Below, one piece after another: positions 4,601 through 62,589 of a DNA stretch of 64,000 nt. A program made the translations under genes and the position numbers. Source of the stretch: Mesostigma viride (Eukaryota > Streptophyta > Mesostigmatophyceae > Mesostigmatales > Mesostigmataceae). The stretch spans positions 2,096,287-2,160,286 of the forward strand of contig RPFO01000406.1 in NCBI GenBank assembly GCA_009746045.1, written 5' to 3'. Below the pieces are notes generated by a model. It saw only the letters and a program-made list of their open reading frames with translations, had not been told where the DNA came from and searched no databases. How positions within the stretch are numbered: the stretch's first letter is position 1; each line of letters begins with the position of its first letter.

Positions 4601-4620
4601 AACGCGCTGCGGTCGCGGTA

Positions 4621-9813: not shown

Positions 9814-10020
9814 CCATCCATCCATCCATCCATCCATCCATCCATCCATCCATCCATCCATCCATCCATCCATCCATCCATCCATCCATCCATCCATCCA
9901 TCCATCCATCCATCCATCCATCCATCCATCCATCCATCCATCCATCCATCCATCCATCCATCCATCCATCCATCCATCCATCCATCCATCCATCCATCCA
10001 TCCATCCATCCATCCATCCA
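9814..10020. repeat. (CCAT)n microsatellite, about 52 units
   Basis: An uninterrupted tetranucleotide array of about 207 bases. It produces long artificial Met-Asp-Gly-Trp or His-Pro-Ser-Ile open frames on each strand, which are not genes. Short CATC/GATG tracts recur near other repeat edges at about 10165, 29153, 30986 and 41890. Confidence 0.98.
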
Positions 10021-15878: not shown

Positions 15879-15971
15879 TTTTAATTTTGTTCCTGCTGCA
15901 GACCTTCAAGGTTTTTCCTTTTTCTTTTGTTGCTTTCTTCTTTTGATTCCTATTCCTTTACGTAATTAAAG

Positions 15972-17720
15972 ATGGATCCAGTGGGTGGAGATATGTCGCC
16001 TATACCTACCAATAATAATAATAATAATACTACTAATAACATTAACAATAACAATACTCGTGGTAACCGACGGGACTCCTTGGAAACGGTACACCATCTC
16101 ACTCCTCAAGGTATTCTGCGTACCTCACCGCCTTCTCCTGCTGCTGGTGGTCGCCGTCGTCCCTCAATTACCCCACCTACCTATGAACAACGTATTTCCC
16201 AAGTCAGATTTAGTGAGGAACCTTCTTTCGTTGTGAACCAGGCCCCTGCCCCTTCTGCAACCTTGGCTCACCCCTCCAGCAGGTCCTCACACACTAACAA
16301 TGCTCCTAGGCCTCCTTCCCACCCTGTGCCTTCAATGCCTGCTATTAACACGGGTCGTACCTCGGCCCCTGTCGGCCCTTCTGGGCGCCCTAGTGCAGTC
16401 CCCTTTTTCCCACCTGCTTCCTGGTCCTACCCTGAGACGGCCTATGAGGCTGCCCAGGTTCCTACCCGTGTGGCTGATTTAGAAGTTAATAATGATTTCA
16501 GTACCATGCCCCTAGATGATAGGAATTATGATCATTTTGCCTATTCCTCTCTTCGTGAGCAATATACTGTCCCCTTCTCCTATGGGCACCATCCGGAAAC
16601 GGTGGCTCCCTCCAGACCCCTACCCAAGACTTTTCCTATCCCTTCCTTCTATCCCGCTTATGTAGCAGTGGAAGATAGTGGCCCTATGGGAAAAACTGAT
16701 TCTTCTAATCCCCCTAAGCCTCCTGCTCTTCCCCTCTTTGCCAACCTTCCTAAGCTGGATGTCAAGTCTACCCCTCAACAGTTTTTCACCTTCATTATGT
16801 TGCTCACCCAGAACACAGAGTCCTGGCAGAACCACAATAGGTGGCGCCTCTCTGATGCTGTACTAGTTCCTCATTATCTTACTACCTGCATTACTCCTGA
16901 ACTTGCTAACCTCATCCAGTGTGAGTCTCTTGCCTCTCATGCCTACCCAAACTCTGTAGCAGAATTGTTCAAGCGTTTAGAGAACCATTTAGTCCCTCCC
17001 GATGCAGATTGGCAGGATAGATTATCCTTTGGCACCTTGCAGCAGGGTACCAAGTCCTTCAAAGAATATATGAAAGAGTTTGATGCTCAGATGGTACGAA
17101 TTAGGGATTTGTCGGGTGCAGAAGTACGTGCTCGCTTCCTTCAGGGCCTCAGTAGACCCTTATTGCGTGAAGTCAAGCGCCAGTTCTCTGCCTACCGTTT
17201 TACTGACCTGCCCCTCAAGCATGTGCGTCAGCATCTTTTACGAGTAGCAGATTTCTTCTCCACACCTTCTCTTCCTACCCGTTCCCGTATTAATAATATA
17301 AGCCTTACCCCTGAGGAGGAAAACTCCTATGTAGAAGAATTAGATATCTGTGTGACTGACCTTTCAGCTCTGGATGTCTCTCATATTACCTGCTATCATT
17401 GTAAGGAAGTAGGTCACCTTAAACGTGAATGCCCCAAGTTCCTTTCGGGTGCTCCCCCTCATCCCGACGCTCGCCCTCCTCGTACCCCTCAGCGTGCTCC
17501 TATTCGTCCCACTTCAGGACACATTCCTTCAGCTACCCCTAGTAGGCTGAATGCTGTGCAGACAGGATCCCCAGGGTTCCCCTATGATAATCAGGCTCCC
17601 GCACCCTCTTCAATCCCTCGTGACCCTCCAGCAGTGGCTTTTCCGCCAGGGTCTTCTTCGGGGTTCGTTCCTATGGATTTGGGGGGGGAGGGGAACAGTA
17701 GGCCTGTCAGCCGGGGGTAA
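15972..17720 (+). CDS. gag: Gag polyprotein of element A
   Basis: An intact 582-residue ORF starting MDPVGGDMSPIP. An asparagine-rich low-complexity stretch comes first, then a proline/serine-rich region. The capsid-like core at about residues 160-430 contains LPLFANLPKLDVKS, QQFFTFIMLLTQ and YMKEFDAQMVRIRDLSG. A CCHC zinc knuckle, CYHCKEVGHLKREC, sits at about residue 475, for packaging RNA. The C-terminal tail is proline-rich and overlaps pol by about 170 bases. The pol frame is one base ahead, so expression of pol would need a +1 (or -2) shift, or splicing. The G-run GGGGGGGGAGGGG (17681-17693) lies in the overlap. Element D has a close homologue. Confidence 0.92.
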   Translation: MDPVGGDMSPIPTNNNNNNTTNNINNNNTRGNRRDSLETVHHLTPQGILRTSPPSPAAGGRRRPSITPPTYEQRISQVRFSEEPSFVVNQAPAPSATLAHPSSRSSHTNNAPRPPSHPVPSMPAINTGRTSAPVGPSGRPSAVPFFPPASWSYPETAYEAAQVPTRVADLEVNNDFSTMPLDDRNYDHFAYSSLREQYTVPFSYGHHPETVAPSRPLPKTFPIPSFYPAYVAVEDSGPMGKTDSSNPPKPPALPLFANLPKLDVKSTPQQFFTFIMLLTQNTESWQNHNRWRLSDAVLVPHYLTTCITPELANLIQCESLASHAYPNSVAELFKRLENHLVPPDADWQDRLSFGTLQQGTKSFKEYMKEFDAQMVRIRDLSGAEVRARFLQGLSRPLLREVKRQFSAYRFTDLPLKHVRQHLLRVADFFSTPSLPTRSRINNISLTPEEENSYVEELDICVTDLSALDVSHITCYHCKEVGHLKRECPKFLSGAPPHPDARPPRTPQRAPIRPTSGHIPSATPSRLNAVQTGSPGFPYDNQAPAPSSIPRDPPAVAFPPGSSSGFVPMDLGGEGNSRPVSRG

Positions 17721-32918: not shown

Positions 32919-33092
32919 GTGTGGGACTGAAAATTCGTAACGGAAACGTTTTGGTAGTTGCCGTCACTTCCTCTTGTGCAAACGTGTGGGAGTGAAAATT
33001 CGTAACGGAAACGTTTTGGTAGTTGCCGTCACTTCATTTTGCGCGAGTGTTGGGCTGAAAATTCGTAACGGAAACTTTTTGGTAGTTGCCGT
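32919..33092. repeat. About 65-bp tandem repeat, target of element E
   Basis: Units start at 32919, 32984 and 33047. Each has TGAAAATTCGTAACGGAAAC and TTGGTAGTTGCCGTCACTTC. Element E is inserted within GCCGT of the third unit. The repeat continues after E at 40901 with GCCGTCACTTCC and a decayed unit. Confidence 0.85.
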
Positions 33093-33709
33093 AGTTAACG
33101 TAAAGGATTTACGTTAGATGGATAGAGATTGTTACGCTCTTTCCAACGGCACCTTGAACGCCTCATTTGGTTAAGGAACGTAAAAGTTATGACGTTTCCT
33201 AGGCTGTGCCGACAGTACCCGGCGCGCCACTGTGGGCGCGTACGGACACAGGATGTACAAGTGTCACTTTGATAGTCCGCAGGACGTTGACAGGACTTGT
33301 ACAGGACTTGATGGTCAATTGATAGGTAGGCGTGCTGTAGCGCGCCAGGACCTATGAGACAATTGATGCTGACTAGTGTACGGATAGGTCCACAGGACTA
33401 GCCGTATGGACAATTGATAGATCTGCGCGCCAAAGGCGTGCCAGAGTCTGTGTAATCAATTGATTGACAGTTCAGCTGTGACAGTGCAGCTGAATACTTG
33501 GACGCGTCCCTAGCAAGCTATATGAGTGACTTGGTCACACCGGGACGCTAGTTCTTGCGTGCACGTTCTCTTGGCACTGCGACCCTGTCGTCTGTGCTGC
33601 GTGCAGTCTTGGAAGTGACGTGACTTACGTCTGTGTTTCCTTGTTATTAATAAAGGCAACTTCCTGCAAGAACCATGGCGGAATTCGTGGCATTCTCACC
33701 CTCACAACT
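33093..33709 (+). repeat. Element E 5' LTR (617 bp)
   Basis: AGTTAACGTAAAGGATTTACG at the start, AATAAA at 33649-33654, and an ATG at 33675 inside the LTR that opens the ORF1 frame. Compared with the 3' LTR it differs at GCGTGC/GCGCAC and CACCCTC/CACTATC. No classical TGG-type primer site follows; the next bases are CGTATTACAC. Confidence 0.93.
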
Positions 33710-34424
33710 CGTATTACACGCTCTGTTAAAAAGATTTCGGATTCCCGATGACGAGGAAATAGCCGCTCCGCCGGCTGGTTCTTCGTCAAGACCGACTGCG
33801 CCGTCGTGGCAGCAATTGCTCGACGAAGTTACGATCTCGCTCGACGAGCTTCATCGTCAGCAGCGCGCAGCTCACCATTGCTCGGGGATAACCCCGAGGA
33901 CCCCGATTTGCCAGCACTGGTGCCGGCAATCCGCAACCTGTTGGACCAGATTCGAAACATTTTATCGACATTTACGGTCCAGGTGCGGGGAGGTTTGCGG
34001 TCGGTGACCGAAGTCACGACTGCCATTGAGGAGTTGGACAACGTCCTCTCTTCACTCACCGGTTACCAGAGAAACCTGCAAAACTGGGCATCGCTACGCA
34101 CGGGGGGCGCGCCGGCGGTGTCAACAAATTTGTTTCAGGATCTCGCTGCTATCGCTGCTCACTCGCGGCGTACGCAGTCGTGAGCGCCAGGTTTTAATTA
34201 ACCTGGTGGCATTTCTCGCCTCTGTGCGAGAGTGGATTCCCGCGGGGTGGGAATTATTGACGATCTTTACACATCCTCTGCGCCTCGTCGCGCGTCGGCG
34301 CGTCGCAACTTACGCGGCGGGGAGCACACCGGTTTTAATTCATACCGGTGCAGGTCCGGAGCTGGATATGGAGGATCGTGAGTTCGTATACACGTACTGC
34401 GACTTCAGGGGCCTTGACTACTAG
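33675..34424 (+). pseudogene. ORF1 of element E (frameshifted), unknown function
   Basis: It starts MAEFVAFSPSQLVLHAL, continues RFRIPDDEE, changes frame near 33800-33870 to read LVPAIRNLLDQIRNILSTF and LTGYQRNLQNWASLR, and changes again near 34170 to read RERQVLINLVAFLASVREW and the acidic, tyrosine-containing end FVYTYCDFRGLDY. The intact homologue is 42554-43339 in F. The protein looks alpha-helical with an arginine-rich patch before the C terminus. No known domain was recognised. It precedes gag on the same strand. Confidence 0.7.
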
Positions 34425-34592
34425 TCGGCCTAATTTTCTTTGCAGTACTCGTCGACATTTTTTTGTCGAATTTTCAGCGGCAATTCGCGGGGCGGCAGCG
34501 ACACCGGCGCAGGCGGCAGTGGCGACACAAAAATTTTGTACATATTTTCTGCTGCTTTGTTAAGGTGTTCTTTGAATAGCTGGTAGTGCAGG

Positions 34593-35710
34593 ATGGCTGA
34601 GGGACGCCGTAGCAAGGGTCCAGCCAGTGGGAATAATAATGGGGGTGCTGGTAGTGGAACCGCTCACGTAGATGACGTGGGGCTTACCGGAGAGATTACC
34701 AACCTTCCTCACAATAATAATAATGCACAAGCTATTCATGGCTTTGATCTTACCACACAGGGTCTTTTAATTGTCAATCAGTTGCAGCCTGTAACCTCAG
34801 ACTCCAAGCCTAAGCAGGCTGAAGAGTTTGTGGAGGATTGGAAGGGTTCCCTAGCTTGTACGGTGGTACAAATTACTATCAAATCTGGATAGGCAGTAGC
34901 ACTTTTGGCAAGTGTACTGACCAGATTAAGGACCTAACCAGGGAGTGCAAAAAGGCCAATAAGGCCTGGGCACTGTACGTGGCTGAGCTGAAGGAGCTGC
35001 TGGAAGACCAACGCAAGAAGGTCGGCATCCATTGGCAGGACAAGTATCAAGGGTGGGAGGTCAAGGGGGACCTGATCCAGAACTTTCTCAACTATTGTAA
35101 GATGGTTGAGGAGGGCAGGGCTCACGGCTTTAATGTCGCTGATAACATAGCCCTAACCAACTGGCTCAAGGTTTCTGGGCTGGATAAGGCGACACGTGGC
35201 TCCTTAAAAGTCATGTGTGCCCCACACTCTACCCTGAAGGCCTACAAGGTCATCATTAAACAAGCACTCGAGGCAGAGGAGCTGTTTGAGGGTGGAGTGC
35301 CAGCAGTGAAGGCTACCCAGGCAGGCGGGCGTACCCAGGGTGGCTCCAAGACGTCTGAGGCTGACCGAAGCCAAGGAGGGCGTAGGGGCAACCATAACAA
35401 GCGCAAGGGAGATCATTCACCTGATTCTGACAGGAGGTCACACTCCAAGTCGGTGTTCAGGCGGGTGGGTGGTCAGCCCAAGCAGGGCAACGCGTCTGAC
35501 AATGGGGGCAGTGGCCAGGGCAAGTCCAAGATACAATGCTACCTGTGCAAGGGGTGGGGGCACATCAAGAAGGAGTGTCCCAGCTTCAAGAAGTCCCAGG
35601 GCCAGGGCAGCAACAAGAATAACAACAACAACAACAAGAAGAACAACAACAAGTCCCAGGCAGGCCAGCCTTCAAAGGGCAGTCAGCAAGAAGACAACAA
35701 GGAGCAGTGA
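34593..35710 (+). pseudogene. gag: Gag of element E (one frameshift)
   Basis: Begins MAEGRRSKGPASGNNNGG. A single-base change near 34835 breaks the frame, and reading resumes with GFPSLYGGTNYYQIW. It then follows F gag closely: a helical capsid-like core, NFLNYCKMVEEGRAHGFNVA, and a zinc knuckle CYLCKGWGHIKKEC, then an Asn/Lys-rich tail ending DNKEQ. The TGA is followed by CTGTCT as in F. Here a missing C near 35895 puts the downstream frame out of register. Confidence 0.88.
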
Positions 35711-37572
35711 CTGTCTGAGGCAACCCCTACACACCTTAATTCACCCAAGGGGGAGGCCAGGTGCTCCAATGCAGATTTTATATCTGGGCAACAAGAGGGT
35801 GATCTCCAGGTTCAGTGTGGCCCCAGGTCACCTGGAGAGGTACAGGTTCCTATGAAGACGTCCTTGACAGCTGGTGCAGCTGTAAGAATGTCTGACCCAT
35901 GCATCCTCGTGCTGGGCACGAGGGTGGACCTCTCATTTTGAGAGAAACCAATGTACAACCACAGAGGGGTGTGAAGGCCTCTGGTGGTATGCATGTGGTC
36001 CCTGCTGGCGGTCCAGGTGTTGGGCATGAGCAGGGTGACTCAGGCTCTGAGTCAGAACAGGATGGAAGTCAGCATGGTGATGCTGGACAACCTGACAGCA
36101 CAGTCCTGACTGTGCCAGGGACTGCTTCCTCTGTGTACCAGGAGTTGGGTGCCCGAATCCACAACATGTTTGGGCATGCCACTTCTCTGTCAAACAACTT
36201 TGCCTTCCGTATGGGCAGGGCACCCCTTCTTAAGGCGTGTCAGCAAGCTGCCTCACGGTGTAAGTGCCAGTTGTCCTCCAACAAGCCCAGGAAATCACAT
36301 GCCAAAGCTCTACCTCAGAGCATTGGTGATCTGCAGTGTGATATCCAACACATCAGGGGCATGCAACTGTTGGTGTGCGTGGACAGGTACACGAAATACA
36401 AGGTGCTGGAGCATTTACCTTCTATGAAGAACAGGTACTTGCTGGCTGCCCTGCAGAATGTAAGAGCCAAGTTTCCTACCACAAGGATCCAGGTGGACAT
36501 GCAGTTTCAGCATCTCAAGGGTGATCCTACCCTTCCTGAGTTGCTGGTTACACCTAGGGAGGCTCATGGGCAGCAGGGTGCTATCGAGAGGGCAATCCAG
36601 GAGGTCAAGAAATTGATCATCTCTGAAGACTGGGTACCCTTGTCTGCACCTGCACTTGTCAGGAGTGCATGGCTGAGGAACGTGGAGCAGCAGCTGAACA
36701 GCAGGGTTAACTTCTACTATGATGGAGTTGCTGTCAGCCCAATGGGTCTATATCATGGCCTGTGCCCACCACATGTGCTGGAGGGCTGGAAACATGCTGC
36801 ACATGTCACCTTTGCCAAGCTGAGGGAGAAGGACCGGGGTTGGAAGATGCTGGAGCCACAAGTGGGTCAGAAGGTCCTAGCTTGGAAGGAACCTAGCCTT
36901 TATGGCAAACGTGGTAGCTGGAGTCCTGGGGTGGTTACCCAGGTTGATGAAGCTAGCCACGCATGCTTGGTCAGCATGGAGGACGAACCAAAGCATGTAC
37001 ACCGGCTGAGTTGGTCATATGTCAAGCCTAACCTGATGAATGAGGGCAGTCAGGCACAAGGCTCACAGGATCTGCAGGATTTTCAGGTCCCAGGTGACAT
37101 CACTGACGCAACGACCACATCTGTTGCAGGGGAATCTGTCAGCCCTGGCCAGGTTGCAGAGGTACTTGTTGAACAGGCTGCAAGGTCAACAGCTGGGGAG
37201 TCAACTGTCAAGCCCAAGGCACTAACCAAGCCCAGGGGGACAAGTTTGGCTGGATTGATTGGGGCTCTACAAAGGGCCAAGAAGCAGCCCAAGGTAGCCA
37301 AGCTCAGGTGGCATGGCAATCTGGGGCTGGACACTGCCTTAGAGGTAGACACTAATTCTCAGGTTTCCATCATTGGGACCAGGGCTGCAGCAGGGTACAG
37401 CATGTCTGAACCCAGCTATCAGTTTGTGTCTGACTTCAGTGGCGGGGTACACGTGAAGGTACTGGGTGAGGTATTCATTCCTATCCTTGGACAGGACACT
37501 GCTTTTTGTGTCTTGGAGGGCTATCAAGGACCTGCTCTTCTGGGGCAGAATTTCCTATGCCAGGATGGGTAG
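35711..37572 (+). pseudogene. pol: Integrase and retropepsin-like domain of element E
   Basis: The main frame is open from 35899 (557 codons). Integrase: zinc region RIHNMFGHATSLS with CKC, then catalytic Asp in GDLQCDIQHI (about 148), Asp in RIQVDMQFQHL (200) and Glu in GQQGAIERAIQ (230). The second spacing is D-x29-E, shorter than the usual 35. After a linker comes a retropepsin-like domain at about 460-557: LEVDTNSQVSIIGT, FSGGVHVKVLGEV and ALLGQNFL. DTN stands where DTG or DSG is expected. A frame change near 37555 separates it from RT. Confidence 0.85.
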
Positions 37573-39333
37573 TGATCACGTCCTCTCTCCTGACTAAGGA
37601 AGGGGCTGGTCAGGTCCCACTGATTAATTTCAGGACCACTCACCTATCACGTGCAGTAACCAGGTCGGTTAAGCGTGTGCAAGTGTGCCAGGGGCAGGAG
37701 CCCTTGGTTGATGACCTCATACTGCCAGCTGCTAGTCATCCAAGCAGTTTGGGCATTGGTCCTCACTCACTTGCTGGACACAGCCCTATCAACTACCAAG
37801 GCCTGGTGAAGCTCATGTCCTCTCCCATTATGTGTCCCCAGGTCACACTGGGTCTGATTAAATCTGGGGAGGACTGGATCTCCAAGAAATGCGTGGAACC
37901 TGTCAATGACCTGCCTCCTGCACGACGTCTACTCAAGCTCAAGTTTGTCATCAAGATGAAGGAGGTGGACGGGGTCAAGGTACCACATGTCAGGCCAGTG
38001 CTGAATGAGTTCAAGGGTACTGGTGAGTGCACTGCTGAGGAGTTGTATACCCCTGGCATGCTGCATGATACTTGGAGGCTGCTGCTGTGTGTCTTTCTAG
38101 GCCTTCTCAACAAGGGCTTGGACTATGGCTCAGTGGTGATAGACTTCAAGAGGGCATTTCTGGAGGGGATGCAGATGTGGCACAGGAAAAGTGGGAGGGC
38201 AAGACGCCTTTCTATGTTAGGGTGCCTGCTGTATGGAAAAGGGACATCCACACGGAGTTCCTTAAAATCCTCAAGGGCCTGGAGGGCCTGAGGTCAAGTC
38301 CAATAATCTGGAGGGAGACTCTCAACCGTTTCCTGAAGGAGCATTGCAACTTGAAGGTCTCTCCTGTAGACCCCTGTCTGTTTCTGGGGCAATGGGAAGG
38401 CCTGCCAGTGTATGCTTCGCTGCACGGGGATGACCTACATCTGATAGCTCCCACGTCGTGGCTTAAGGAGCTGATCTCCATCATTAAGTCCAAGTTTCCT
38501 CTGGGTAGGGAGCAATGGCAGGTGGAGAATGAGCCTCTGCTGTTTGTGGGCATGGAGGCCACACTGGTGAAGAAGGGGGGGAGTGGCGTATGCTGCTGGT
38601 GGGGGGCAATGACTATCAAGAGACCCTCATTAGCAAGCTTCCTCCAACCATCACACAGGCACTGTGTCCCATGGTGAGGGGCATGGTTGCTTGGGTGGCA
38701 GGCATTTCCAGGCCAGACCTTATGGTCATAGCCAGGTTGCCTGATGACATGCTGGTGGAGCTAGGGTCTGCCAAGGTGGCTGATCAGGTCAGGGCTTCAT
38801 CTGGCATTCTGTTGTCTGCAGTGGATTTATCACAACCCATTTGCATGGAGCTGTATGTGGATAGCTCAATGGACAGCAGGCAGGTCTCCAAGGTCAGGGG
38901 CAGGGCTGCAGGGCTCTTTGTGCTCAGACAGGAAGGCCTGGGGAGTTTGGTGAGCTGGTTTAGTCGCCTGCACAAACGGGTGGCTGTCAGCAGTGATGTG
39001 GCAGAATGCAGGGCTATTTGTGAAGGCATTCACACAAGCCTTTATCTGAAGGAGTTGCTTCATCAGATGACTTCTAACACTCCTTGGCCACTTCAGGTTA
39101 CCACTCTTCTAAAAACAGACTCCATGGGGATGGTGCAGTTTGTGCACAGGCAGATGGCCAGAAGTAGGGACTTGGATTATCTCCTTCTTAAGGAGTTGTC
39201 CTCCTTGGCCAATATTGAGCATATCCCTGGGGTTGACAATCCTGCTGATGCTTTGACCAAGCTAGTGCAGAAGGCAGCAGTGCAATACAAGGTTCTTCAG
39301 TCTCTGATGGACCCATCTCAGCAAGCTGTCTAA
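37573..39333 (+). pseudogene. pol: Copia-type reverse transcriptase and RNase H of element E
   Basis: Three frames in series. 37506-38171: LKLKFVIKMKEVDG and VVIDFKRAFLEG (motif A). After a change near 38170, to about 38575: VPAVWKRDIHTEFLK, PVDPCLFLGQW and YASLHGDDLHLIAP, with HGDD in the place of YVDD. After a change in a G run near 38575, to 39333: RNase H with ELYVDSSMDSRQ, SWFSRLHKRVAVSSDVAECR, LLKTDSMGMVQF and DNPADALTKL. Domain content is complete; the breaks fall in or near homopolymers. Confidence 0.85.
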
Positions 39334-40283
39334 GCTGGTGCATGGTTATAGGGCATTGGAGAGCAGATTGTGTGGTAGTGTCAGCATTGTGACTGGCATA
39401 ATACCTGTATTTTAGTCTGTACTAAGGCTCATGGACCATGGTACACTCACTCTGATTTTAATCAGGATACAGCCAGGTTTTGGCTGGGGTTCATGCTGTT
39501 GACTACACAAGGTTGACAGGTCCATTACAGACCATGTATTCTATTTTAAAAGAAATGTATATTTGTACATACTTCTCACAATGGTCTGGGAACCTTTATT
39601 CTGGGGTTTATAGGGCGGGGTTCGATTCCCTGGTATTATGTTTCTACAAGCTGGCCTGTTCAGGTGTTTGCCTGTTCAGACTTCCCTAGTTCCCCAGGGC
39701 AGGATTTAATTGTTGCCTATGTGTTTCATTTTGTCATTTGTTTGCTGTGGCAGTTTACCATCTGGCAAGTAGACGGGCGCCGTAAGACGGGCGCCAATAG
39801 ACCCCTGTTGAGAGAATGACAGGCAAACTATTGTAATACGCCTTACTTTGTCAAGTGGTATTTTAATTGTCATGGATTTATTGTACTTATATTGAATATG
39901 TACTGGGTTTTATGGGATTAGTATCTGGGATTAATGTAACTCACCGCCAGAAGGTCATTGTACTGGAGGCTCTACCGAGGTGATGGGATTAATTCCTGGA
40001 GAAGACCTCATAGAATTAACCTGTATGTATTTAATTTTGTGTGCTTCTAATATCTGGTGGTACTCTGTAATGCCACTTCCATAGGTTTTTATCCATTTCT
40101 CATGGAATGGTTTTCCCTGTGGCAGATCTGTTTCTTTTCCAGTTCCTTAAAAGAAAGGGCTGGGGGAATGGCAATGGCCATTAAAGACATCTGTTCAAGC
40201 TTCAAGCTGGAGTGAAGGACATTTCAAGCTACTTCAAGGGTCCCTGGCAGGGGATGTGATCCCTAAAGAAAAGAAGGGATTGG
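39334..40283 (+). other. Element E 3' untranslated region
   Basis: 950 bases without a supported ORF, ending AAAGAAAAGAAGGGATTGG before the 3' LTR; the purine run is the likely plus-strand primer tract. A perfect B-box-like GGTTCGATTCC at about 39618 has no A box or clover-leaf. Confidence 0.65.
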
Positions 40284-40900
40284 AGTTAACGTAAAGGATT
40301 TACGTTAGATGGATAGAGATTGTTACGCTCTTTCCAACGGCACCTTGAACGCCTCATTTGGTTAAGGAACGTAAAAGTTATGACGTTTCCTAGGCTGTGC
40401 CGACAGTACCCGGCGCGCCACTGTGGGCGCGTACGGACACAGGATGTACAAGTGTCACTTTGATAGTCCGCAGGACGTTGACAGGACTTGTACAGGACTT
40501 GATGGTCAATTGATAGGTAGGCGCACTGTAGCGCGCCAGGACCTATGAGACAATTGATGCTGACTAGTGTACGGATAGGTCCACAGGACTAGCCGTATGG
40601 ACAATTGATAGATCTGCGCGCCAAAGGCGTGCCAGAGTCTGTGTAATCAATTGATTGACAGTTCAGCTGTGACAGTGCAGCTGAATACTTGGACGCGTCC
40701 CTAGCAAGCTATATGAGTGACTTGGTCACACCGGGACGCTAGTTCTTGCGTGCACGTTCTCTTGGCACTGCGACCCTGTCGTCTGTGCTGCGTGCAGTCT
40801 TGGAAGTGACGTGACTTACGTCTGTGTTTCCTTGTTATTAATAAAGGCAACTTCCTGCAAGAACCATGGCGGAATTCGTGGCATTCTCACTATCACAACT
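40284..40900 (+). repeat. Element E 3' LTR (617 bp)
   Basis: Near-identical to 33093-33709 and followed by GCCGT at 40901-40905, which completes the target duplication. Confidence 0.93.
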
Positions 40901-40905
40901 GCCGT

Positions 40906-43339: not shown

Positions 43340-43463
43340 ATTCGGCATGGTGGCGCGGTCGGCACCGGGGCAGGCGGCTTTTTGACAGATTGTACATATA
43401 TACCTGTCTTTTGTTTTACAGCTGCTTAGCTCAGGGCCATACACACAGCTGGTGTAGTTTACC

Positions 43464-44579
43464 ATGGCTGAGGGGCGCCGTAGCAAGGGCCTAGCCAGTG
43501 GCAATAATAATGGGGGTGCTGGTAGCGGGACCGCTCACGTAGATGACGTGGGGGTCACCGGAGAGATCACTAATATCCCTTTGCCTAATAATACTACACA
43601 TGCTGTTTCAGGTTATGACCTCACCACTCAAGGACTACTTATTGTTAATCGACTGCAACCTGTCACGTCAGACTCAAAGCCCAAGCAGGCTGAGGAGTTT
43701 GTGGAGGGGCTAGAGGGGTTTCCAAGCTTGTACGGTGGTACAAACTATTATCAAATCTGGATAGGTAGCCAGACTTTTGGCAAGTGTACAGATCAGATAA
43801 AGGACCTCACTAGAGAGTGCAAGAAGGCCAACAAGGCCTGGTCAAGCTACGTGGCAGAAATAAGGGAGCTGCTAGAGGATCAACGGAAGAAAGTGGGGAT
43901 CCATTGGCAGGATAAATACCAGGGGTGGGAGGTAAAAGGAGACCTGATCCAGAACTTCCTTAACTATTGTAAAATGGTTGAGGAGGGCAGGGCTCACGGC
44001 TTTAATGTTGCTGACAACATAGCCCTGACAAACTGGCTCAAGGTCTCTGGGCTGGACAAGGCCACACGTGGCTCTTTAAAGGTCATGTGTGCCCCACACT
44101 CTACCCTCAAGGCCTACAAGGTCATAATCAAACAAGCCCTCGAGGCAGAGGAGCTGTTTGAGGGTGGCGTGCCAGCTGTGAAGGCTACCCACGCAGGTGG
44201 GCGTGCCCAGGGGGGCTCCAAGCCGACGTCTGAGGCTGACAGAAGCCAAGGAGGACGTGGGGGCAACCACAACAAGCGGAAGGCCAACCATTCACCCGAC
44301 CCTGACGGGCAATCACATGCCAAGTCGGTGTTCAGGAGGGTGGGTGGCAAGCCCAGGCAGGGTAACGCGCCTGACAACGGGGGAGGAGGCCAGGGCAAGT
44401 CAAAGATCCAGTGCTACCTGTGCAAGGGGTGGGGGCACATCAAGAAGGAGTGTCCCAGCTTCAAGAAGACCCAGGGGCAGGGCAGCAACAAGAATAACAA
44501 CAATAAAAACAACAACAAGAAGTCCCAGGCAGGCCAGCCTTCAAAGAACAGTCAACAAGATGAAAACAAGGAGCAGTGA
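43464..44579 (+). CDS. gag: Gag of element F, ending at a UGA before in-frame pol
   Basis: An intact 371-residue ORF from MAEGRRSKGLASGNNN. The core at about 75-240 is helical (YYQIWIGSQTFGKC, YQGWEVKGDLIQNFLNYC, STLKAYKVIIKQALE). It is followed by a basic linker, the zinc knuckle CYLCKGWGHIKKEC and an Asn/Lys-rich tail. The stop is TGA (44577-44579) followed by CTG, and the same frame then stays open into integrase. That layout suggests readthrough of the stop to make Gag-Pol. The same TGA-CTG context is kept in E. Confidence 0.9.
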   Translation: MAEGRRSKGLASGNNNGGAGSGTAHVDDVGVTGEITNIPLPNNTTHAVSGYDLTTQGLLIVNRLQPVTSDSKPKQAEEFVEGLEGFPSLYGGTNYYQIWIGSQTFGKCTDQIKDLTRECKKANKAWSSYVAEIRELLEDQRKKVGIHWQDKYQGWEVKGDLIQNFLNYCKMVEEGRAHGFNVADNIALTNWLKVSGLDKATRGSLKVMCAPHSTLKAYKVIIKQALEAEELFEGGVPAVKATHAGGRAQGGSKPTSEADRSQGGRGGNHNKRKANHSPDPDGQSHAKSVFRRVGGKPRQGNAPDNGGGGQGKSKIQCYLCKGWGHIKKECPSFKKTQGQGSNKNNNNKNNNKKSQAGQPSKNSQQDENKEQ

Positions 44580-45763
44580 CTGTCTGAGGCAACCCCTACA
44601 CACCTTAATTCACCCAAAGGGGAGGCCAGGTGCTCCAATGCAGATTTTATATCTGGGCAAAGAGAGGGTGATCTCCAGGTTCAGGGTGGCCCCAGGTCAC
44701 CTGGAGAGGTACAGGTTCCTATGAAGACGTCCTTGACAGCTGGTGCAGCTGTAAGAATGTCTGACCCCATGCATCCTCGTGCTGGGCACGAGGGTGGACC
44801 TCTCATTTTGAGAGAAACCAATGTACAACCACAGAGGGGTGTGAAGGCCTCTGGTGGTATGCATGTGGTCCCTGCTGGCGGTCCAGGTGTTGGGCATGAG
44901 CAGGGTGACTCAGGCTCTGAGTCAGAACAGGATGGAAGTCAGCATGGTGATGCTGGACAACCTGACAGCACAGTCCTGACTGTGCCAGGGACTGCTTCCT
45001 CCGTGTACCAGGAGTTGGGTGCCCGAATCCACAACATGTTTGGGCATGCCACTTCTCTGTCAAACAACTTTGCCTTCCGTATGGGCAGGGCACCCCTTCT
45101 CAAGGCGTGTCAGCAAGCTGCCTCACGGTGTAAGTGCCAGTTGTCCTCCAACAAGCCCAGGAAATCACATGCCAAGGCTCTACCTCAGAGCACTGGTGAT
45201 CTGCAGTGTGATATCCAACACATCAGGGGCATGCAACTGTTGGTGTGCGTGGACAGGTACACAAAGTACAAGGTGCTAGAGCATTTACCTTCTATGAAGA
45301 ACAGGTACTTGCTGGCTGCCCTGCAGAATGTGAGAGCCAAGTTTCCTACCACAAGGATCCAGGTGGACATGCAGTTTCAGCATCTCAAGGGTGATCCCAC
45401 CCTTCCTGAGTTGCTGGTTACACCTAGGGAGGCTCATGGGCAGCAGGGTGCTATAGAGAGGGCAATCCAGGAGGTCAAGAAATTGATCATCTCTGAAGAC
45501 TGGGTACCCTTGTCTGCACCTGCACTTGTCAGGAGTGCATGGTTGAGGAACGTGGAGCAGCAGCTGAACAGCAGGGTCAATTTCTACTATGATGGAGTTG
45601 CTGTCAGCCCTATGGGTCTATATCATGGCCTGTGCCCACCACATGTGCTGGAGGGCTGGAAACATGCTGCACATGTCACCTTTGCCAAGCTGAGGGAGAA
45701 GGACCGGGGTTGGAAGATGCTGGAGCCACAAGTGGGTCAGAGGGTTTTAGCTTGGAAGGAACC
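44580..45763 (+). pseudogene. pol: Integrase of element F, truncated by element C
   Basis: In frame with gag after the UGA, starting LSEATPTHLNSPKGE. The integrase zinc region and the catalytic residues (GDLQCDIQHI, RIQVDMQFQHL, GQQGAIERAIQ) are present as in E, at nearly the same sequence. The frame is cut by the insertion of element C at 45763 inside VLAWKEP, and the few following codons belong to the C LTR. Confidence 0.88.
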
Positions 45764-46339
45764 TGTTACGCCGCGGATATCTACCTCCACCTCTACCTCT
45801 AATGGGCCTGATACTACCTAAACTGGTCAGGCCTCCTCTACTCAACCCTCTGGCGAAAGACGAACGTGACGGAGCTGATCTCAATGCATTAACGTATGTG
45901 ATACTATAATACGCCATACAACCATTTATCAAAACCCGTTTACTCCAGGAATAGAGGAAGGAAACACAACTACACTGCCGTGACCCAAGCCTAAATGTGT
46001 TAATTCATTTAACACACGCCGAGTGCACACACGAGGGGTAGAACGTGCATAAATGGTCACCAACGGTCCAACACGCTCGGGCCGACATGGCCCTCGCCTA
46101 CAGATGCACGCTGGTCCACTACATCTACAGATGCACGCTGGTCCACTACATTCTACCAAAGGATCAGGACCACTAGTAAAGTACGCGGCGCGGCGCCCCA
46201 AAGGCACCCAATGTACCACGGTACTGTTACGAGGACAATAGTGTCCCGGTAGGAGCCACACGTAAACCTACTAGGGATAACCGAGGCAAAAGACCTAATT
46301 TACGTCCGTAACTACAACGAATTGTTACGCGACGTAACA
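45764..46339 (-). repeat. Element C 3' LTR (576 bp, minus strand)
   Basis: On the minus strand it starts TGTTACGTCGCGTAACA and ends CCGCGGCGTAACA. It carries the doubled 27-base-like word around GTAGTGGACCAGCGTGCATC that also marks element D but not A. The flank GAACC (45759-45763) should recur after the 5' LTR of C outside the window. Confidence 0.92.
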
Positions 46340-54683: not shown

Positions 54684-54928
54684 ATGAGTCAACGTCGTGT
54701 TTTTACTGCGCCTTCCCATTCATCTAGTGATAATAGTTTAGCTAAGTATTACGTAGTTATTACCCCTCAATGGTCAGCCATTTTCCTCTCTTGGTCAGAT
54801 GCTAGGAAGATAGTGCAAAACCGTACATATAATGTAATTAGGTATAAGAAATTTGTTACCTTCGAGGAAGCTCAACAATTCCTTATAGACCATAGCGTAT
54901 CAGATCTAGGCCTACACGTACGTTCTAC
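54684..54928 (+). pseudogene. ORF0 of element D, N-terminal half with viroplasmin-like domain
   Basis: Same as the A protein through residue 82, including KYYVVITPQW and YKKFVTFEEAQQFL. Element G is inserted after the codons for HVRST. The remaining 49 codons, through EFGSLSITVVKKD, lie at 62590-62737, so the ORF was intact before G arrived. Confidence 0.85.
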
Positions 54929-55401
54929 AGTTAGTCTCCATGCTTTGCTGTAGACTAAGTCTCAAAGGCATTGTGAATACAACGTATGAATAAGCCTTGT
55001 AAACCCACGTTGGTATGTGAATATAAATACCACGTGGGCTATGCAGATAGGGATGCTAGTCGAGTCGCATACGTTTCCCTAGATAGGTACTTTGGGTACT
55101 GAGGTACGTGACAGATGTCAGTACCCAGTATACGTAGTGTCCTGTCATTGGACGGTACTAGAGTATCCTAGATAGGGACCGTACTGCAGCGTGCATTGAT
55201 TTGTGATCGCACGATGCAGTGACTAGGCAGCTACCTGTCATCGTGCGGCCTCGGGCCAACGGTCTGCACCCAACGGTCACTGGCGGCGCAGCCGGTGAGA
55301 GGAACGTTGATAAAGGGTAAACCTATTTTCTAATGAACCAAGCAATTCATTGCTCCAAGCCTTCAGTGTTCTCAAGCAATATATCCCACCGCATTCTAAC
55401 T
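54929..55401 (+). repeat. Element G 5' LTR (473 bp)
   Basis: Starts AGTTAGTCTCCATGC and ends CGCATTCTAACT. TATAAATA at 55023-55030 is a likely TATA box. Only 18 bases separate the LTR end from the first ATG (55420), leaving no room for a separate classical 18-base primer site plus leader. Confidence 0.95.
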
Positions 55402-55419
55402 TGAATTTTATTTGCTACC

Positions 55420-58053
55420 ATGGCTATCACGAACAAGAATGTCGCTAAGAAGCTTTCCTACAACGAGGATGATGATGGGCAGGATCGGCGGATGCCCAGA
55501 GACAACAACAAGAAGCCGGCTGGCGATGCGGCCATTTCCAAGAAAAAGAAAAAGAACAAAAAGACTCACAATGGTTGCCAGGACGAGGGGACGGCGGCTG
55601 CAAAGCCGACCGACCTACCCCCCTCCCCTGCGAGGCCGGAGGCCGAGACGGCTCCCCCCGGGGAGACCGGCTTACCCTCGACTCCGGCGGCCGCCCCAGC
55701 CGCAACCACGGCTGGCGCGGCCATGGCTGCGGAGACCTCGGTGGTAAACCCCACTGAGGCTCCACAGTCCGGCCCCACGTTGCCATCTCTTCGGGAGCGT
55801 ATGCCCCGTCAGACGGCCTCGGTGGCACCGGACGGGACGATTACCTTTCGTCCCGCCACATCAAACCTTAATGTCCCTTTCGCCCAGGGACATAACCACA
55901 TTGAGCTAACGTTTGGGCGACCCTCTGCGTCCCTTCTTCGCAAGAAGAAGGACATGGAGAGTATTAAACTCGCACGGGTGGTGCGAAAACCTGTGGAACC
56001 CATCGCCGGACAACCAATGTCCGACGATGAGGTATCCGACACTGCCAGTCTCCCCGATGGGGAGACTGAGATCAATCTTACCCCAGCGCTCCTGGCGGTC
56101 GAGCAGGCCGCGCTGGTGGCAAATGAAGAACGCCGAGAGCGGCAGCGGGACCGAGAGGTCCGCCGAGAGGCGGCTTTTCGGCTCGCCGCTAAGCGGCAAG
56201 AATATGAAGAGGAAGCCGCCCGTCGCCTGGCTACCCACCAGGCGATGGCGGACGCGTACCGCGAGGCCACCCAGCGGTTACGTGACCTCTTAAAAAATGC
56301 TGACTATCCCATGCACTATGCGGACAGTCAAGACCTGGCCGAGCTTGCTCGGTCAGCACACTTTAAAACCATGTCCTCCATCACCCAAGCCAGGGTCACG
56401 GAGGCCATCTTGGCCAAACATGGGGTGGTAGCTGAAGAAGCCCCCCCGCTGGAAACCACCAGCAAGAAACCCTCTCCCCCCCAACCCCTGCAGTACAAGG
56501 AGGGACTGCTGGCCCTGGGCGCGAGGAAGGGCAAAGAGGCGGACTGTCCAGTCCGGCCTGCTATGATCATGGGAGAACCACTCCCTGACATACCCGAGGA
56601 TGAGGCTGCTTTTCAGGCAGCCCTCCGGGAGCATGAGGTACGCAAGGAGATGAAGCGTCTCATGCGGGAGGAGGCCAGGAGGAGAGCAGAGGCAGACACC
56701 CCTGCCCGCCCCTCCACCGATGGGGCTGGACCCAGTGGGGTTACCCGGACACCCCCGGGCTCCCCCAGGGCCACCATGACCCCCCTCCCCCTCCCCCACC
56801 ACCCCAGGTTCGCCCTGTGGGTTGGGGCCCCCTCCCAAACCAGGGGGGGTGGCCAGGACCCCAGGAGGCCCTGGGGGGAGGTGCAGAGGTGCCACAGGCA
56901 CCCAACAGGCCTGCTGAGGCCCCCCCAAGGAGCGGGGATGTCCTGGAACAGCTCGCCATTCTCCAGGCCCAGCTGGCCTCGTTGCAAGATCAGCAGTTAA
57001 CAGCTAACCAGCTGCAAACTGTCGAGGGCCTGCGCGCCCTGATGTCGCGGTATGAGCGGGGGACCATCAACCTGGACCCCACCCGCCTGCAACAAGCAAC
57101 CGACAGCTTCTTGAGGGCCAACCCCCCTCTCACAGGTGTGTTTAACCCTCATAAAAAGGAATCCAAAATCAATATTGCTGGCTTGCCTGAGGGTCACACT
57201 GTTGAACAAGCTAAGCAATTTGTTTTTGCTTTGGAGTATGGGATGGAAGGTCTTAACCTTAGACATCAGTTTAAGGCTCTCAGGGCCTCCTCCACATTCC
57301 ATCAATCATCTCCTGCAATCAGAGCATTGATTCAAACCTATCAGGAACGTACCCTGACACCTGAAGCAGCCATTGAACAGTGGCCTACCTTTATCACTGA
57401 TCTGAAACAGCTAGTGCTTACCAATAACCACATGGAAGCAGTAGAACGTTTCAACTGGCTTGCTGCATATAAGGTGAACAAGAATAACCTCTCTGGGGAT
57501 GCAAAAACATACAGGGTAATGATTGAGAAAGACCTTGAGCTTCTCAAGCTCCAACCAAGGTATCTCATCCACACCTGGCTAACAAAAGCTAATTTGCAAC
57601 CTTCTGTCCTGGCTACCCTGCTTACAGGCCTCAAGTCCCTCTGGGACAACTTCAGAGCTGCCATGCTCTATATCGAGGAGGCAGTGGACCCCCTGGGTAC
57701 TGGCAACAACCAGGCCCAGGACCCCAAGGTCCAGGGTGTCCAAGGCCACAAACGCAAGGGGCAGGCCAGCCAGGGGGGGCACCCAAGACCCACAAGTCCT
57801 CCCACCAAGGGGGCAGTGGCTCTCAGGGGCGTGGCAACACGTGGCACCGTGTGCCCCTGCATGGCAACCCCAACAACAACAACAACAACAACAACAACAG
57901 GTCCCAGCAGGGCAACAATAACAACAGGTCCCAACAGGGCCAAAACAACAACAACAACAGGTCCCAGCAGGGCCAGAACCGGTCCCAGCAGGGAAACAAC
58001 AACAACAACAACACAACAACAACCAGCCTGGCAACCCTGGGGGGTCCATAAGG
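55420..58053 (+). pseudogene. gag: Gag of element G with long charged N-terminal extension (three frame changes)
   Basis: Frame 1, 55420 to about 56790: MAITNKNVAKKLSYNED, a Lys run KKKKKNKK that resembles a nuclear localisation signal, a proline-rich part, then a long charged helix (ERQRDREVRREAAFRLAAKR). The frame changes in a C-rich tract near 56770-56800. The capsid-like core follows to about 57770: LEQLAILQAQLASLQDQQL, HTVEQAKQFVFALEYGMEGL and PRYLIHTWLTKANLQPS. A second change occurs at the G7 run near 57772, and a third within the AAC repeats near 58000, leading into the zinc knuckle in the pol frame. Identical LTRs make assembly error or programmed shifting as likely as decay. Confidence 0.8.
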
Positions 58054-61000
58054 TGCCTGAGGTGCTTCCAACGAGGGCACGCACGGCACAACTGCCCCAA
58101 CAACGACTCCCTGGCCAACGGGGTGGATCTCTGCCCGGGCTGCTGGCACGCACGTCATCCCCTGGGGCCTCCAGGCAGCCGTTGCAACAGGCCTCGCTAC
58201 CCAAATCAATGTGAGTTCACTCACCTTATGTACTCTGAGGATGATGATCTCATTACCATTGGGGATGGCAACCAGGGCATAATTGATTTTGAGGCAGCAA
58301 CCTTACTGTCCTCCCAACACCCTGTTCTGGAACCTTACATAAAAGCACTAACCCCTACTGTTGACAACTCCATAGATATCAAGGAGCTTGCTCATCAGCT
58401 GCACCTAGCCATGGGTCATGAAACAGTGGCTGAGGAACTGGCCAGACGGCTGGGGGGTAGTAGCATGGGAAAACAACTCAGGAATGCAGTAAAACTGGCT
58501 AGACAACACTGTCAAGAATGTCAGTTCAATAGCCCCAAACCTCAAAAATGGCATACTGCAACTCCTTCCACCAATAGGGGCATGATAGTGGGGGATGTGA
58601 TGCACATCAACAAAGATGTCCAACCCTACCTGATCCTAAAAGACTCATGGTCCAGGTTCACAGTAATGGAACCCCTACCTGGCATGTCTGCAGGGCAGCT
58701 ACGTGTTGCACTCATGATTGCTTTACCCAGATTCTACCCAGTTGACAGAATTTTGCTTGATCAACAATTTTCTTGTCTGACTGACCTGGAAGGGTGTGAA
58801 GCAATAGAGATTGCTGGGCTGGAAGATCATGAGGGTCAGGGGGTCATTGAAAGAACCATCAGATCTGTCAAAACCCTACTAGCCAAAAATCCTTCCAAGG
58901 ATGCTACTTCAGGGGTCTATTGTGACAGGGCACTCTGGTGTCATGAAATGTGCACAACCCTAAACATGAGACCTGTCTTGCATGCCACGTGGGGTGAAGT
59001 AATCCCAGCAGGCCTGCAGGCAGGTGTATATCCCCCAGAGGTGATAGCACTGTACAACACTGCACGTGCACAAACCTCAGCAAAACTGGCAGAAAAAGAT
59101 AAAACCCATTCCAGGCCAGTATTCCAAAAAGGTGATCAAGTTCTCTATTACAAGGAAAACAGCTTTGGTAAGGTTGGAACTTGGCTAGGTCCAGTTACCA
59201 TCCGTGGATTTACCAAAAACAGCAAGACCGTGGAGGTCAAGCACAATATCAATGGGAAGCGTCACAGGGTGAGCTGTCATAGAATTAAGAAGTATTATTC
59301 TCCCATGGCAGACGTGCCTGGGGAAGAGTCTTTAAGCATGGACTCACTACTTCTATCTGGCAACTCCAGCATGCCCAGCAGTAGCTCTGAGCCACCAATT
59401 ACTGCTGTTGACAGCACCACAGCACCCTCTGTGAACCCTTCCACCCTCAGTGAAGCCAGGCCCACTTCACAACCTGGGGATTGCTTAACCAGGCACGAGG
59501 TAGCTGGGTTGGAAGCATTAGCTCAGCCCCAAGGCACCAAATTGTCTGCCAACCCTCCCGCTCTGAGGTCAAGATTGGCAGTCGCCTTGCAAGCATTACA
59601 CAGGTCACATAAGCAACAAGCTGCTGTGGCCGCAGGGTTGGCAAAAGTCTCAGCTGTGTGCACTAGTCAGGACCCCTGGACCCTGGCAATAGACACTCAG
59701 GCACAGGTCAGTGTGATCAGTGCACAAGCCATCCCTGGTCTTGAGATTGCACCTTCATTTTGGGCACGGGTGCAGGATTTCTCAGGCCAAAGCTCACTGG
59801 ATGTAGTGGGACAAGTGATGCTCCCTATACTTGGTATTCAGACACCCTTCCAGGTGGTGGAGGGGTACTCTGGTAACACCTTGTTGGGGGAACCTTTTGT
59901 ATCCTATCCTGGGGTGCTTATCTCAGCTAATGAGCTCAGTGTCACAGGGGTGGGTGCAGTTCCTCTGGACCACTTTAAAATCCCTCTCTCCAGTATTGTC
60001 CCTGGTATGGATGCTGTCATCAAGGCAGTCAACACTCAGTATGCACCAGGGGAGATCCCTGATCTGGACAAGTTAGTGCACAGCCAGTTCCTCCATCCCT
60101 CAGCCTTTGGGCTGGGTAAGTGGGACATAGCCATGCACTCACCCCACCAAATCTCCCACGTCATACAAGAATGCAAAACACAAAAAGGGTTTACCAAGTG
60201 GCTGATGGCCATTGTCCACCAAGCCAGGCAGGAATGGGTCCTGCCCAACCCCAAAAACCCTCAATACAAACCGCCTGTCACCCCTTCATGGGACGTGCCA
60301 GAGGGAGCCAAAAAGCTCAGATTAAAATTTGTTCTCAAACAAAAACCACAAAAAGTGGGCTCCCCAATCTTCCATGCCAGACCATGTGTCACAGAATTAA
60401 AGGGGACCTCCACACTGCCAAAAGGGGAAACATACACACCTGGGCTGCAACAAACCTCACTCAGGATCATGCTCTCCCTCTTCCTCCACAACCTCAATGC
60501 AGGCCAAGACTATGTCTGCAAAGCCACTGATATTAAAAGGGCCTTCCTCAGGGGGGACCCAGAAAAGGCTGAATCTGTGTGGAAAGGGAAGGTGTACGTG
60601 GTAGACACCCCAGCTGTGTGGAAACCTTATATTGATGAGCCCCACCTTATCATCAACATTGGGGTGGAAGGGCTTGTCAGTGCCCCAAAAATTTTCAGAG
60701 ACTCAGCAGAGGAAGTATTCAAAAAGCTCAAGGCCACGTATGATGACCTGGACCCATGCTTTTTTGTTGTACCCACCCCCTCTGGACTGCTGTTCTTTGT
60801 GTGGCATGGAGATGACCAACTCATTTGTGGGCCTAGAGCTGAGGTGGAAACCTTTATTCAGCAGGTCCAGGAATCATATGAGATTGGCAAACAGGTGGAA
60901 TTGAGCACAACCCCCATCCAGTTCTGTGGCATCATGTTGCAGCTGCATAGGCAGCCAGATCAGTGGGTCTGCTCTCTCTCCCCTCCTGCAGAATATATCC

Positions 61001-61737
61001 AAGATTGTCTAGATCTGCTGCAGGACAACTACCTCCCCTTACATATGTGTGCCACTGTTCAGGGCAAACTGGGGTGGTGGTCAGCCATCTGTGGGGCTCC
61101 CTTAGCTGTCATCAGCAGGGTCACCCATGATGTTCTAGTCAAGATCAAATGCAGTCACATCAGGAAGTTGGTCAATGACTGTCCCCCCCTCATCCTCCAT
61201 GGCCTGAATCTGATGGAAGACATCCACATCCAATGTGTCATGGACAGCTCCATGGAGAGCAGAACAATCAATCAGATGGGGGCACGGGAATCAGGGCTGT
61301 TTTTTCTCACCAACAGGTCAGATTACATGTCCCTCACTTCCTGGTACAGCAGGCTACACCGCAGAAAACCTGGCAGCAGCAACTCAGCTGAATGTCGTGC
61401 TGTGGTGTCTGCTGCATTGCATGCTCGTTCCCTGCAGCACATGCTCACCTGGCTACAAACCCAGGCAGGCAGCACATGCAATGTCATCTCACATCTCTAT
61501 ACTGACAGCCAATCTGTGATCAGTTTTCTAACCAAGAAATCTGTCTCTGCTGCTGTCCACACTGACTTGGATTGGGTGATCCTCAAACAGGAGGCCACCT
61601 ATTTTTCCAGCTGGACTCATGTGGATGATGAGGACAACCCAGCAGACGCTCTCACGAAGCTGCGGGATGCTGCTGGCCAACAGTACCAGCTCCTCTTTCA
61701 GAACATGAACCCCTATGATATCAGAGTCAGTGTTTGA
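58054..61737 (+). CDS. pol: Gag zinc knuckle and Pol of element G: integrase, retropepsin-like, RT, RNase H
   Basis: One continuous frame. It opens with a zinc knuckle CLRCFQRGHARHNC (58054-58095) and a second Cys/His group CPGCWHARH. Numbering from the GTG at 58123: integrase zinc region about 91-133 (HQLHLAMGHE, CQEC); catalytic Asp158 (GDVMHI), Asp213 (RILLDQQF) and Glu243 (GVIERTIRS), a 29-residue second spacing; retropepsin-like domain 520-595 with AIDTQAQVSVIS (Asp524) and TLLGEPFV; RT 730-950 with ATDIKRAFLRGD (Asp803) and FVWHGDDQLICG (895-898); RNase H with CVMDSSMESRTI, SNSAECRAVV, LYTDSQSVISFL and DNPADALTKL. The protease-like domain follows integrase, unlike standard copia, and has DTQ instead of DTG. 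The true start depends on how gag joins. Confidence 0.9.
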   Translation, partial: CLRCFQRGHARHNCPNNDSLANGVDLCPGCWHARHPLGPPGSRCNRPRYPNQCEFTHLMYSEDDDLITIGDGNQGIIDFEAATLLSSQHPVLEPYIKALTPTVDNSIDIKELAHQLHLAMGHETVAEELARRLGGSSMGKQLRNAVKLARQHCQECQFNSPKPQKWHTATPSTNRGMIVGDVMHINKDVQPYLILKDSWSRFTVMEPLPGMSAGQLRVALMIALPRFYPVDRILLDQQFSCLTDLEGCEAIEIAGLEDHEGQGVIERTIRSVKTLLAKNPSKDATSGVYCDRALWCHEMCTTLNMRPVLHATWGEVIPAGLQAGVYPPEVIALYNTARAQTSAKLAEKDKTHSRPVFQKGDQVLYYKENSFGKVGTWLGPVTIRGFTKNSKTVEVKHNINGKRHRVSCHRIKKYYSPMADVPGEESLSMDSLLLSGNSSMPSSSSEPPITAVDSTTAPSVNPSTLSEARPTSQPGDCLTRHEVAGLEALAQPQGTKLSANPPALRSRLAVALQALHRSHKQQAAVAAGLAKVSAVCTSQDPWTLAIDTQAQVSVISAQAIPGLEIAPSFWARVQDFSGQSSLDVVGQVMLPILGIQTPFQVVEGYSGNTLLGEPFVSYPGVLISANELSVTGVGAVPLDHFKIPLSSIVPGMDAVIKAVNTQYAPGEIPDLDKLVHSQFLHPSAFGLGKWDIAMHSPHQISHVIQECKTQKGFTKWLMAIVHQARQEWVLPNPKNPQYKPPVTPSWDVPEGAKKLRLKFVLKQKPQKVGSPIFHARPCVTELKGTSTLPKGETYTPGLQQTSLRIMLSLFLHNLNAGQDYVCKATDIKRAFLRGDPEKAESVWKGKVYVVDTPAVWKPYIDEPHLIINIGVEGLVSAPKIFRDSAEEVFKKLKATYDDLDPCFFVVPTPSGLLFFVWHGDDQLICGPRAEVETFIQQVQESYEIGKQVELSTTPIQFCGIMLQLHRQPDQWVCSLSPPAEYIQDCLDLLQDNYLPLHMCATVQGKLGWWSAICGAPLAVISRVTHDVLVKIKCSHIRKLVNDCPPLILHGLNLMEDIHIQCVMDSSMESRTINQMGARESGLFFLTNRSDYMSLTSWYSRLHRRKPGSSNSAECRAVVSAALHARSLQHMLTWLQTQAGSTCNVISHLYTDSQSVISFLTKKSVSAAVHTDLDWVILKQEATYFSSWTHVDDEDNPADALTKLRDAAGQQYQLLFQNMNPYDIRVSV

Positions 61738-62111
61738 ATAAATGACTGGCCATAGCACAGTACACAACCACCACACCCCCTTACCACAGCGATAGCTGCT
61801 GGGCGCCATAAAATTCAACACATTCGTTGTGGGGTGTGAGTGCTGGCTAGGTCAGATTTGTATCCATTTGCAGCTTGAGGACACAAGCTTTGTATCCATT
61901 TACTTAATGTGTGCTTCAGTACCTGGCCAAACCAGCCAGCTGTGTACACCTTATTTAATGTGCAATATAACACCTGGCCAGAACAGCCAGCTGTAACCAA
62001 CCTGGCTCAACCAGCCATGTCTCTTTTGTACCCCTAATCAACTTAAAAACAATAACAATAATGTTGGGGGTGCAGACCTGCATTAAGAAATAAATAATAA
62101 AACAATACTGG
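61738..62111 (+). other. Element G 3' untranslated region
   Basis: 374 bases without ORF, including repeated CCTGGCCA(A/G)AC(C/A)AGCCAGCTGT words at about 61922 and 61972. It ends AAATAATAAAACAATACTGG before the 3' LTR. An obvious G-rich polypurine tract is lacking. Like E, the final bases before the LTR are TGG. Confidence 0.7.
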
Positions 62112-62584
62112 AGTTAGTCTCCATGCTTTGCTGTAGACTAAGTCTCAAAGGCATTGTGAATACAACGTATGAATAAGCCTTGTAAACCCACGTTGGTATG
62201 TGAATATAAATACCACGTGGGCTATGCAGATAGGGATGCTAGTCGAGTCGCATACGTTTCCCTAGATAGGTACTTTGGGTACTGAGGTACGTGACAGATG
62301 TCAGTACCCAGTATACGTAGTGTCCTGTCATTGGACGGTACTAGAGTATCCTAGATAGGGACCGTACTGCAGCGTGCATTGATTTGTGATCGCACGATGC
62401 AGTGACTAGGCAGCTACCTGTCATCGTGCGGCCTCGGGCCAACGGTCTGCACCCAACGGTCACTGGCGGCGCAGCCGGTGAGAGGAACGTTGATAAAGGG
62501 TAAACCTATTTTCTAATGAACCAAGCAATTCATTGCTCCAAGCCTTCAGTGTTCTCAAGCAATATATCCCACCGCATTCTAACT
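62112..62584 (+). repeat. Element G 3' LTR (473 bp)
   Basis: Matches 54929-55401 by eye and is followed by TCTAC (62585-62589), after which ORF0 of element D resumes. Confidence 0.95.
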
Positions 62585-62589
62585 TCTAC

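Follow-up and report, generated by a model that had tools for sequence, protein, structure and literature searches.

Elements of the Ty1/copia type encode their protease (PR) before the integrase (IN), and in Ty3 elements PR precedes the reverse transcriptase (RT) and IN comes last. The question raised by element G, a complete long terminal repeat (LTR) retrotransposon of the green alga Mesostigma viride, is whether a lineage exists in which PR stands between IN and RT. The element occupies 54929-62584 on the forward strand of a 64,000-nucleotide stretch of contig RPFO01000406.1 (the window), and both LTRs, the target site duplication (TSD) and an empty site were found within these 64 kb. Its pol domains follow the order zinc knuckle, IN, retropepsin-like domain, RT and RNase H (RH). 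The best explanation, in which we place considerable confidence, is that G and a second element of the window, E, represent two families within a deeply diverged clade related to Ty1/copia, with the pol order IN-PR-RT-RH, in which the central retropepsin-like domain would process Gag-Pol. The features of G are as follows (aa, amino acids).

54929-55401, forward strand: 5' LTR, 473 bp, AGTTAG...CTAACT, 100% identical to 62112-62584
62112-62584, forward strand: 3' LTR, identical at every base to the 5' LTR
54924-54928, forward strand: TSD TCTAC (5 bp), second copy at 62585-62589; identified by comparison of the flanks with the empty-site copy near 15725-15730
55420-58048, forward strand: gag region, not one frame in the window copy
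57922-61737, forward strand: pol frame (1271 aa) and stop, open and unbroken over 57922-61734
58054-58095, forward strand: CCHC zinc knuckle, in the pol frame (zf-CCHC_3, E 0.002, below cut-off)
58378-59322, forward strand: IN, with HX4HX30CX2C (counted by eye), DX54DX29E and an SH3-like tail (by eye)
59674-59937, forward strand: retropepsin-like domain (PR), from Pfam, PDB sequence matches and predicted models; Asp codon of DTQ at 59692-59694
60253-60957, forward strand: Copia-type RT (RVT_2), HGDD catalytic box (RVT_2 E 3.3e-5, below cut-off)
61228-61713, forward strand: Copia-type RH, from alignments and the motifs MDSSM, AECRA, TDSQS and DNPADALTK; no Pfam match

An earlier, sequence-only reading of the window had described this order in a single unbroken frame, and the description was confirmed at each landmark: the knuckle at 58054, the IN catalytic residues D158, D213 and E243 (codons at 58594, 58759 and 58849), then AIDTQAQVSVIS...TLLGEPFV after IN, with AIDTQAQ at 59686 and TLLGEPF at 59878, followed by RT and a domain that, from its motifs, we take to be RH. 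The pol domains lay where that reading had placed them, but the element itself runs over 54929-62584, beyond the 58054..61737 given there. G is nested in another repeat (53578-54928/62585-63000), of which an uninterrupted copy at 14381-16101 provides the empty site, and its insertion is recent, since its LTRs are identical.

The order is a property of the clade, as shown by the G copies together with further families found in the genome (439,911,974 bp, 2243 contigs). At least 38 copies of G pol are present, all 38 scored matches being 100% identical over 1229 aa and free of stops. Twenty of the 38 were fetched, including the window copy, and their main alignments were 98.9-100% identical to G; one of them (L011) covered less of the element than the others. 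The second family is represented in the window by E and by F, a truncated copy:

33093-40900, forward strand: element E, with LTRs at 33093-33709 and 40284-40900, 99.4% identical
33088-33092 and 40901-40905, forward strand: TSD GCCGT of E, 5 bp
35896-37569, forward strand: IN-PR frame of E, with PR from about 37336 and the Asp of DTN at 37348
35708-35710 (E) and 44577-44579 (F), forward strand: in-frame TGA that separates gag from pol; CTG comes next, and pol is in frame directly after the TGA
43447-45764, forward strand: F, gag and IN only, 91.8% identical to E

E is collinear with G, PR included, at 30% identity over 1120 aa. The window copy of E is broken just past PR; two other copies that were read (L033 and L034) carry the order IN-PR-RT-RH in a single open reading frame of 1208 aa, which bears out the earlier claim that E shares the arrangement. 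All 78 scored genomic matches of the E family were identical over the 557-aa IN-PR part, and a hand count found the 1208-aa frame open in 32 of them. Families H and I were recovered by a genome search with a Mesostigma protein (150 scored matches), and family J by a search with the EukProt protein P0002 (150 scored matches). A protein named Mesvir1 is encoded at several genomic loci with 100% identity. One copy each of H and I was read; their open frames are 1385 and 1287 aa long, respectively. J was read only from late IN through PR into RT. The RTs of these families are 80% (J), 66% (H and I) and 36% (E) identical to that of G. The order IN-PR-RT is thus found in at least five families (G, E, H, I and J), and IN-PR-RT-RH in four of them (G, E, H and I). 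That the order reflects a single rearranged copy, a chimera or an assembly artefact, for which no supporting point was found, was rejected on the genomic copy survey: that survey scored 38, 78, 150 and 150 matches across several families, and many of these matches have long open frames, which leaves this reading a negligible probability. The arrangement is a family property, as first proposed.

A further question is whether the segment between IN and RT is a protease at all. Searched alone against Pfam, it matched only aspartic-protease families, PF13975 and PF12382, with a best E of 0.0013, and two structure models of it matched almost only aspartic proteases. The segment resembles retropepsins in the kind of protein matched; the models were of low confidence and the sequence matches sub-threshold. 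An ordinary IN-RT linker that happens to resemble a protease, with the true PR undetected before IN, would account for the lack of any match at the curated cut-off. This is very improbable, since the weak matches agree on one kind of protein and the space before IN contains no recognizable protease. Between knuckle and IN, G has a spacer of about 94 aa that includes a second Cys/His cluster and lacks D[ST]G, a motif absent from the whole G pol frame; across the three forward frames of 55403-58400 it occurs once, at 55680, outside the gag frame used. For the pol and gag frames of G, Pfam searches at E values up to 1 gave no protease model before IN; those at E values up to 10, which covered E, H and I and the G and F spacers, gave none either, although the identical library does detect the PR region before IN in a standard Copia element of the same genome. 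A separate protease in this position was thus detectable in none of G, E, H and I. The earlier statement that no DTG or DSG lies between knuckle and IN holds for the pol frame of G but not for E and F, which have DSG upstream of IN, within an acidic Ser/Gly linker lacking retropepsin-like surroundings.

The domain appears to be maintained. Between G and E the conservation of PR equals that of RH, and its ratio of nonsynonymous to synonymous substitution rates is 0.11 versus 0.43 for the linker, so that by sequence comparison PR is under purifying selection. Its catalytic triad reads DTQ in G, H, I and J and DTN in E; the Asp and Thr are invariant, and neither DTG nor any other form of D[ST]G is present in PR of any of the five families. 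This replacement of DTG/DSG would be expected if the domain kept a retropepsin fold but were catalytically dead, serving as a structural or dimerisation module while processing occurred in trans or was not needed. We regard this as rather unlikely, given that the Asp-Thr pair is invariant across the families, that the domain is constrained about as strongly as the IN core, and that even a standard Copia element of this genome (L056) has DSA rather than DSG.

That element, the only one read of 150 scored RVT_2 matches in the M. viride genome, served as a control. It shows Pol_BBD (E 5e-14), rve and RVT_2 (E 8e-51) within 534-3599, that is, PR-IN-RT; its DSA was identified by eye. The position of PR before IN in Copia elements is agreed by this control and by PMC3587641. 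Since a standard Copia element carries DSA, loss of the PR glycine may extend beyond the IN-PR-RT clade in this genome. The RTs of the clade are 26-30% identical to that of the control. By the Pfam results the RT is of Copia type: RVT_2 exceeded its cut-off in H (E 8.6e-8) and J (E 7.6e-9) and was matched below cut-off in G, E and I, whereas no RVT_1 match was found in the pol frames searched, and IN stands first, unlike in Ty3/gypsy elements. The rve model matched IN of I (E 3.9e-5), H (E 3.8e-4) and E (E 0.005-0.04), and gave no match to IN of G itself. The second Asp and the Glu of IN are 29 residues apart (DD29E) in G, E, H and I, compared with 35 in the control. By our own count the finger HX4HX30CX2C is exact in G; in H, I and E the stretch between H and C is shorter, and E has CX1C.

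How PR came to lie behind IN can be read in two ways. PR may have been relocated, or a clan AA protease, of Ty3/gypsy type or another, may have been captured between IN and RT and the Copia PR lost. Capture, which is compatible with the explanation preferred here, is less likely than not; in its favour, the weak matches of PR are to PF13975 and PF12382 and not to Pol_BBD, the model that in the standard Copia element matches the PR region. These matches are, however, too weak to place PR among clan AA families, and the sole comparison with a gypsy protease from the window gave no usable profile-profile match (probability 0.2). A BLASTP search paired VDTQAQVSVIS of P0002 with VDSGAASSFVS of that gypsy protease, at E 0.029.

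Expression of pol seems, on sequence grounds, to involve different recoding in G and E, since pol of G is in the -1 frame and pol of E is in frame behind the TGA. Gag of the window copy of G differs from that of another copy, L006, by two small indels, one in a C run and one in a CAA run; as far as it was fetched, gag of L006 stays open in a single frame until a stop equivalent to 58049, upstream of the zinc knuckle. In L006, pol overlaps gag in the -1 frame, and the heptamer G GGG GGG occurs in gag phase. Two slippery-type G-run heptamers lie in gag phase within the overlap, at L006:1225 and L006:1492, which correspond to about 57773 and 58039 of the window. The zinc knuckle of G is encoded only in the pol frame, so its synthesis would require a -1 shift. 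In the E family, stop-codon readthrough is possible at the gag TGA, a position at which both L033 and L034 have a stop immediately followed by the open pol frame.

Under the preferred explanation of an IN-PR-RT-RH clade with a processing PR, the element would be transcribed from its LTR, and Gag would be made alone, with Gag-Pol arising by a -1 shift in G and by UGA readthrough in E. The central domain would dimerise in the particle and cut Gag and the IN/PR/RT junctions, and the cDNA would be inserted by the DD29E IN, leaving the 5-bp duplication. An ancestral PR before IN would have been lost. The simplest mechanism would be that the PR in the middle of Pol cleaves the polyprotein.

The clade is so far certain only in M. 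viride. Full-length G pol had no match in the protein database among the 7985 candidates sharing most words that were scored, and no relative was found in scans of viral and prokaryote contigs. A wide distribution was first accepted from dinoflagellate labels in EukProt and then doubted, as two of the four matches so labelled are nearly identical to M. viride families. P0005 (labelled Lingulodinium) is identical to family I at 167 of 167 residues, and P0002 (labelled Prorocentrum lima) is 99% (residues 72-200) and 97% (residues 1-75) identical to family J. Because they are 97-100% identical to M. viride families, both are probably contamination, and they point to cross-contamination of public transcriptomes. 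The best identities of the remaining proteins to fetched loci were 74% for P0006 (metagenome), 77% for P0007 (P. lima) and 69% for P0008 (Alexandrium). In the linker upstream of PR, a family J copy (L054) has a 105-bp in-frame GTACGT...AAG stretch that is missing from P0002, as if spliced. Searches for the dinoflagellate spliced leader, tRNA and Rfam families gave 0 matches each. Elsewhere, the window holds a 170-bp tandem array at 4617-5534, with 5.4 copies and 100% matches, and a CCAT array of 207 bp at 9814-10020.

In textbooks, the order of the pol domains serves as a criterion for superfamilies of LTR retrotransposons. A high-copy, recently mobile clade that departs from it, and that also has a non-DTG protease-like domain and a shortened DDE spacing, bears on several questions: how firmly pol orders are fixed, whether a retropepsin can do without the active-site glycine, and where annotation pipelines built to expect PR ahead of IN will file such elements. 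The sequence-only reading had proposed a new pol order or a deeply diverged lineage, and this is supported by the five families. Searches of the open-access PMC literature, with passages of PMC2774666, PMC6317226 and PMC3587641, found no account of the order IN-PR-RT, nor a paper on the active-site glycine. We lean slightly towards a stronger form of the proposal, that this is a superfamily-level Copia-related lineage with the front PR lost, an active DTQ/DTN retropepsin between IN and RT, DD29E and AGTT...AACT ends, which would add a third pol order to PR-IN-RT-RH and PR-RT-RH-IN.

With Ty1/copia elements (Pseudoviridae) the clade shares an RVT_2-type RT with RH, IN before RT, an HX4H-type IN finger and a 5-bp TSD. 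It differs from them in having PR after IN, DD29E in place of DD35E, DTQ/DTN in PR and HGDD in RT, and in the LTR ends of G and E, AGTT...AACT rather than TG...CA, with TGG directly 5' of the 3' LTR in both. By sequence and by model, PR matches best, albeit weakly, Ty3/gypsy and retroviral proteases (PF13975) and cellular DDI1, from all of which the algal PR differs in its pol position and its DTQ/DTN motif. A precedent for an altered pol order exists in Gmr1-like Ty3/gypsy elements (PMC2774666). In these IN takes a Copia-like place, PR stays first, and RT is of gypsy type. Other Copia lineages known from algae are GalEa and CoDi (PMC3587641 and PMC2774666). A shrimp Copia element has a DTGC variant in PR and an IN finger given as HX4HX30CX2C (PMC3587641), but it retains both the PR-INT-RT order and DD35E, and the algal clade keeps neither.
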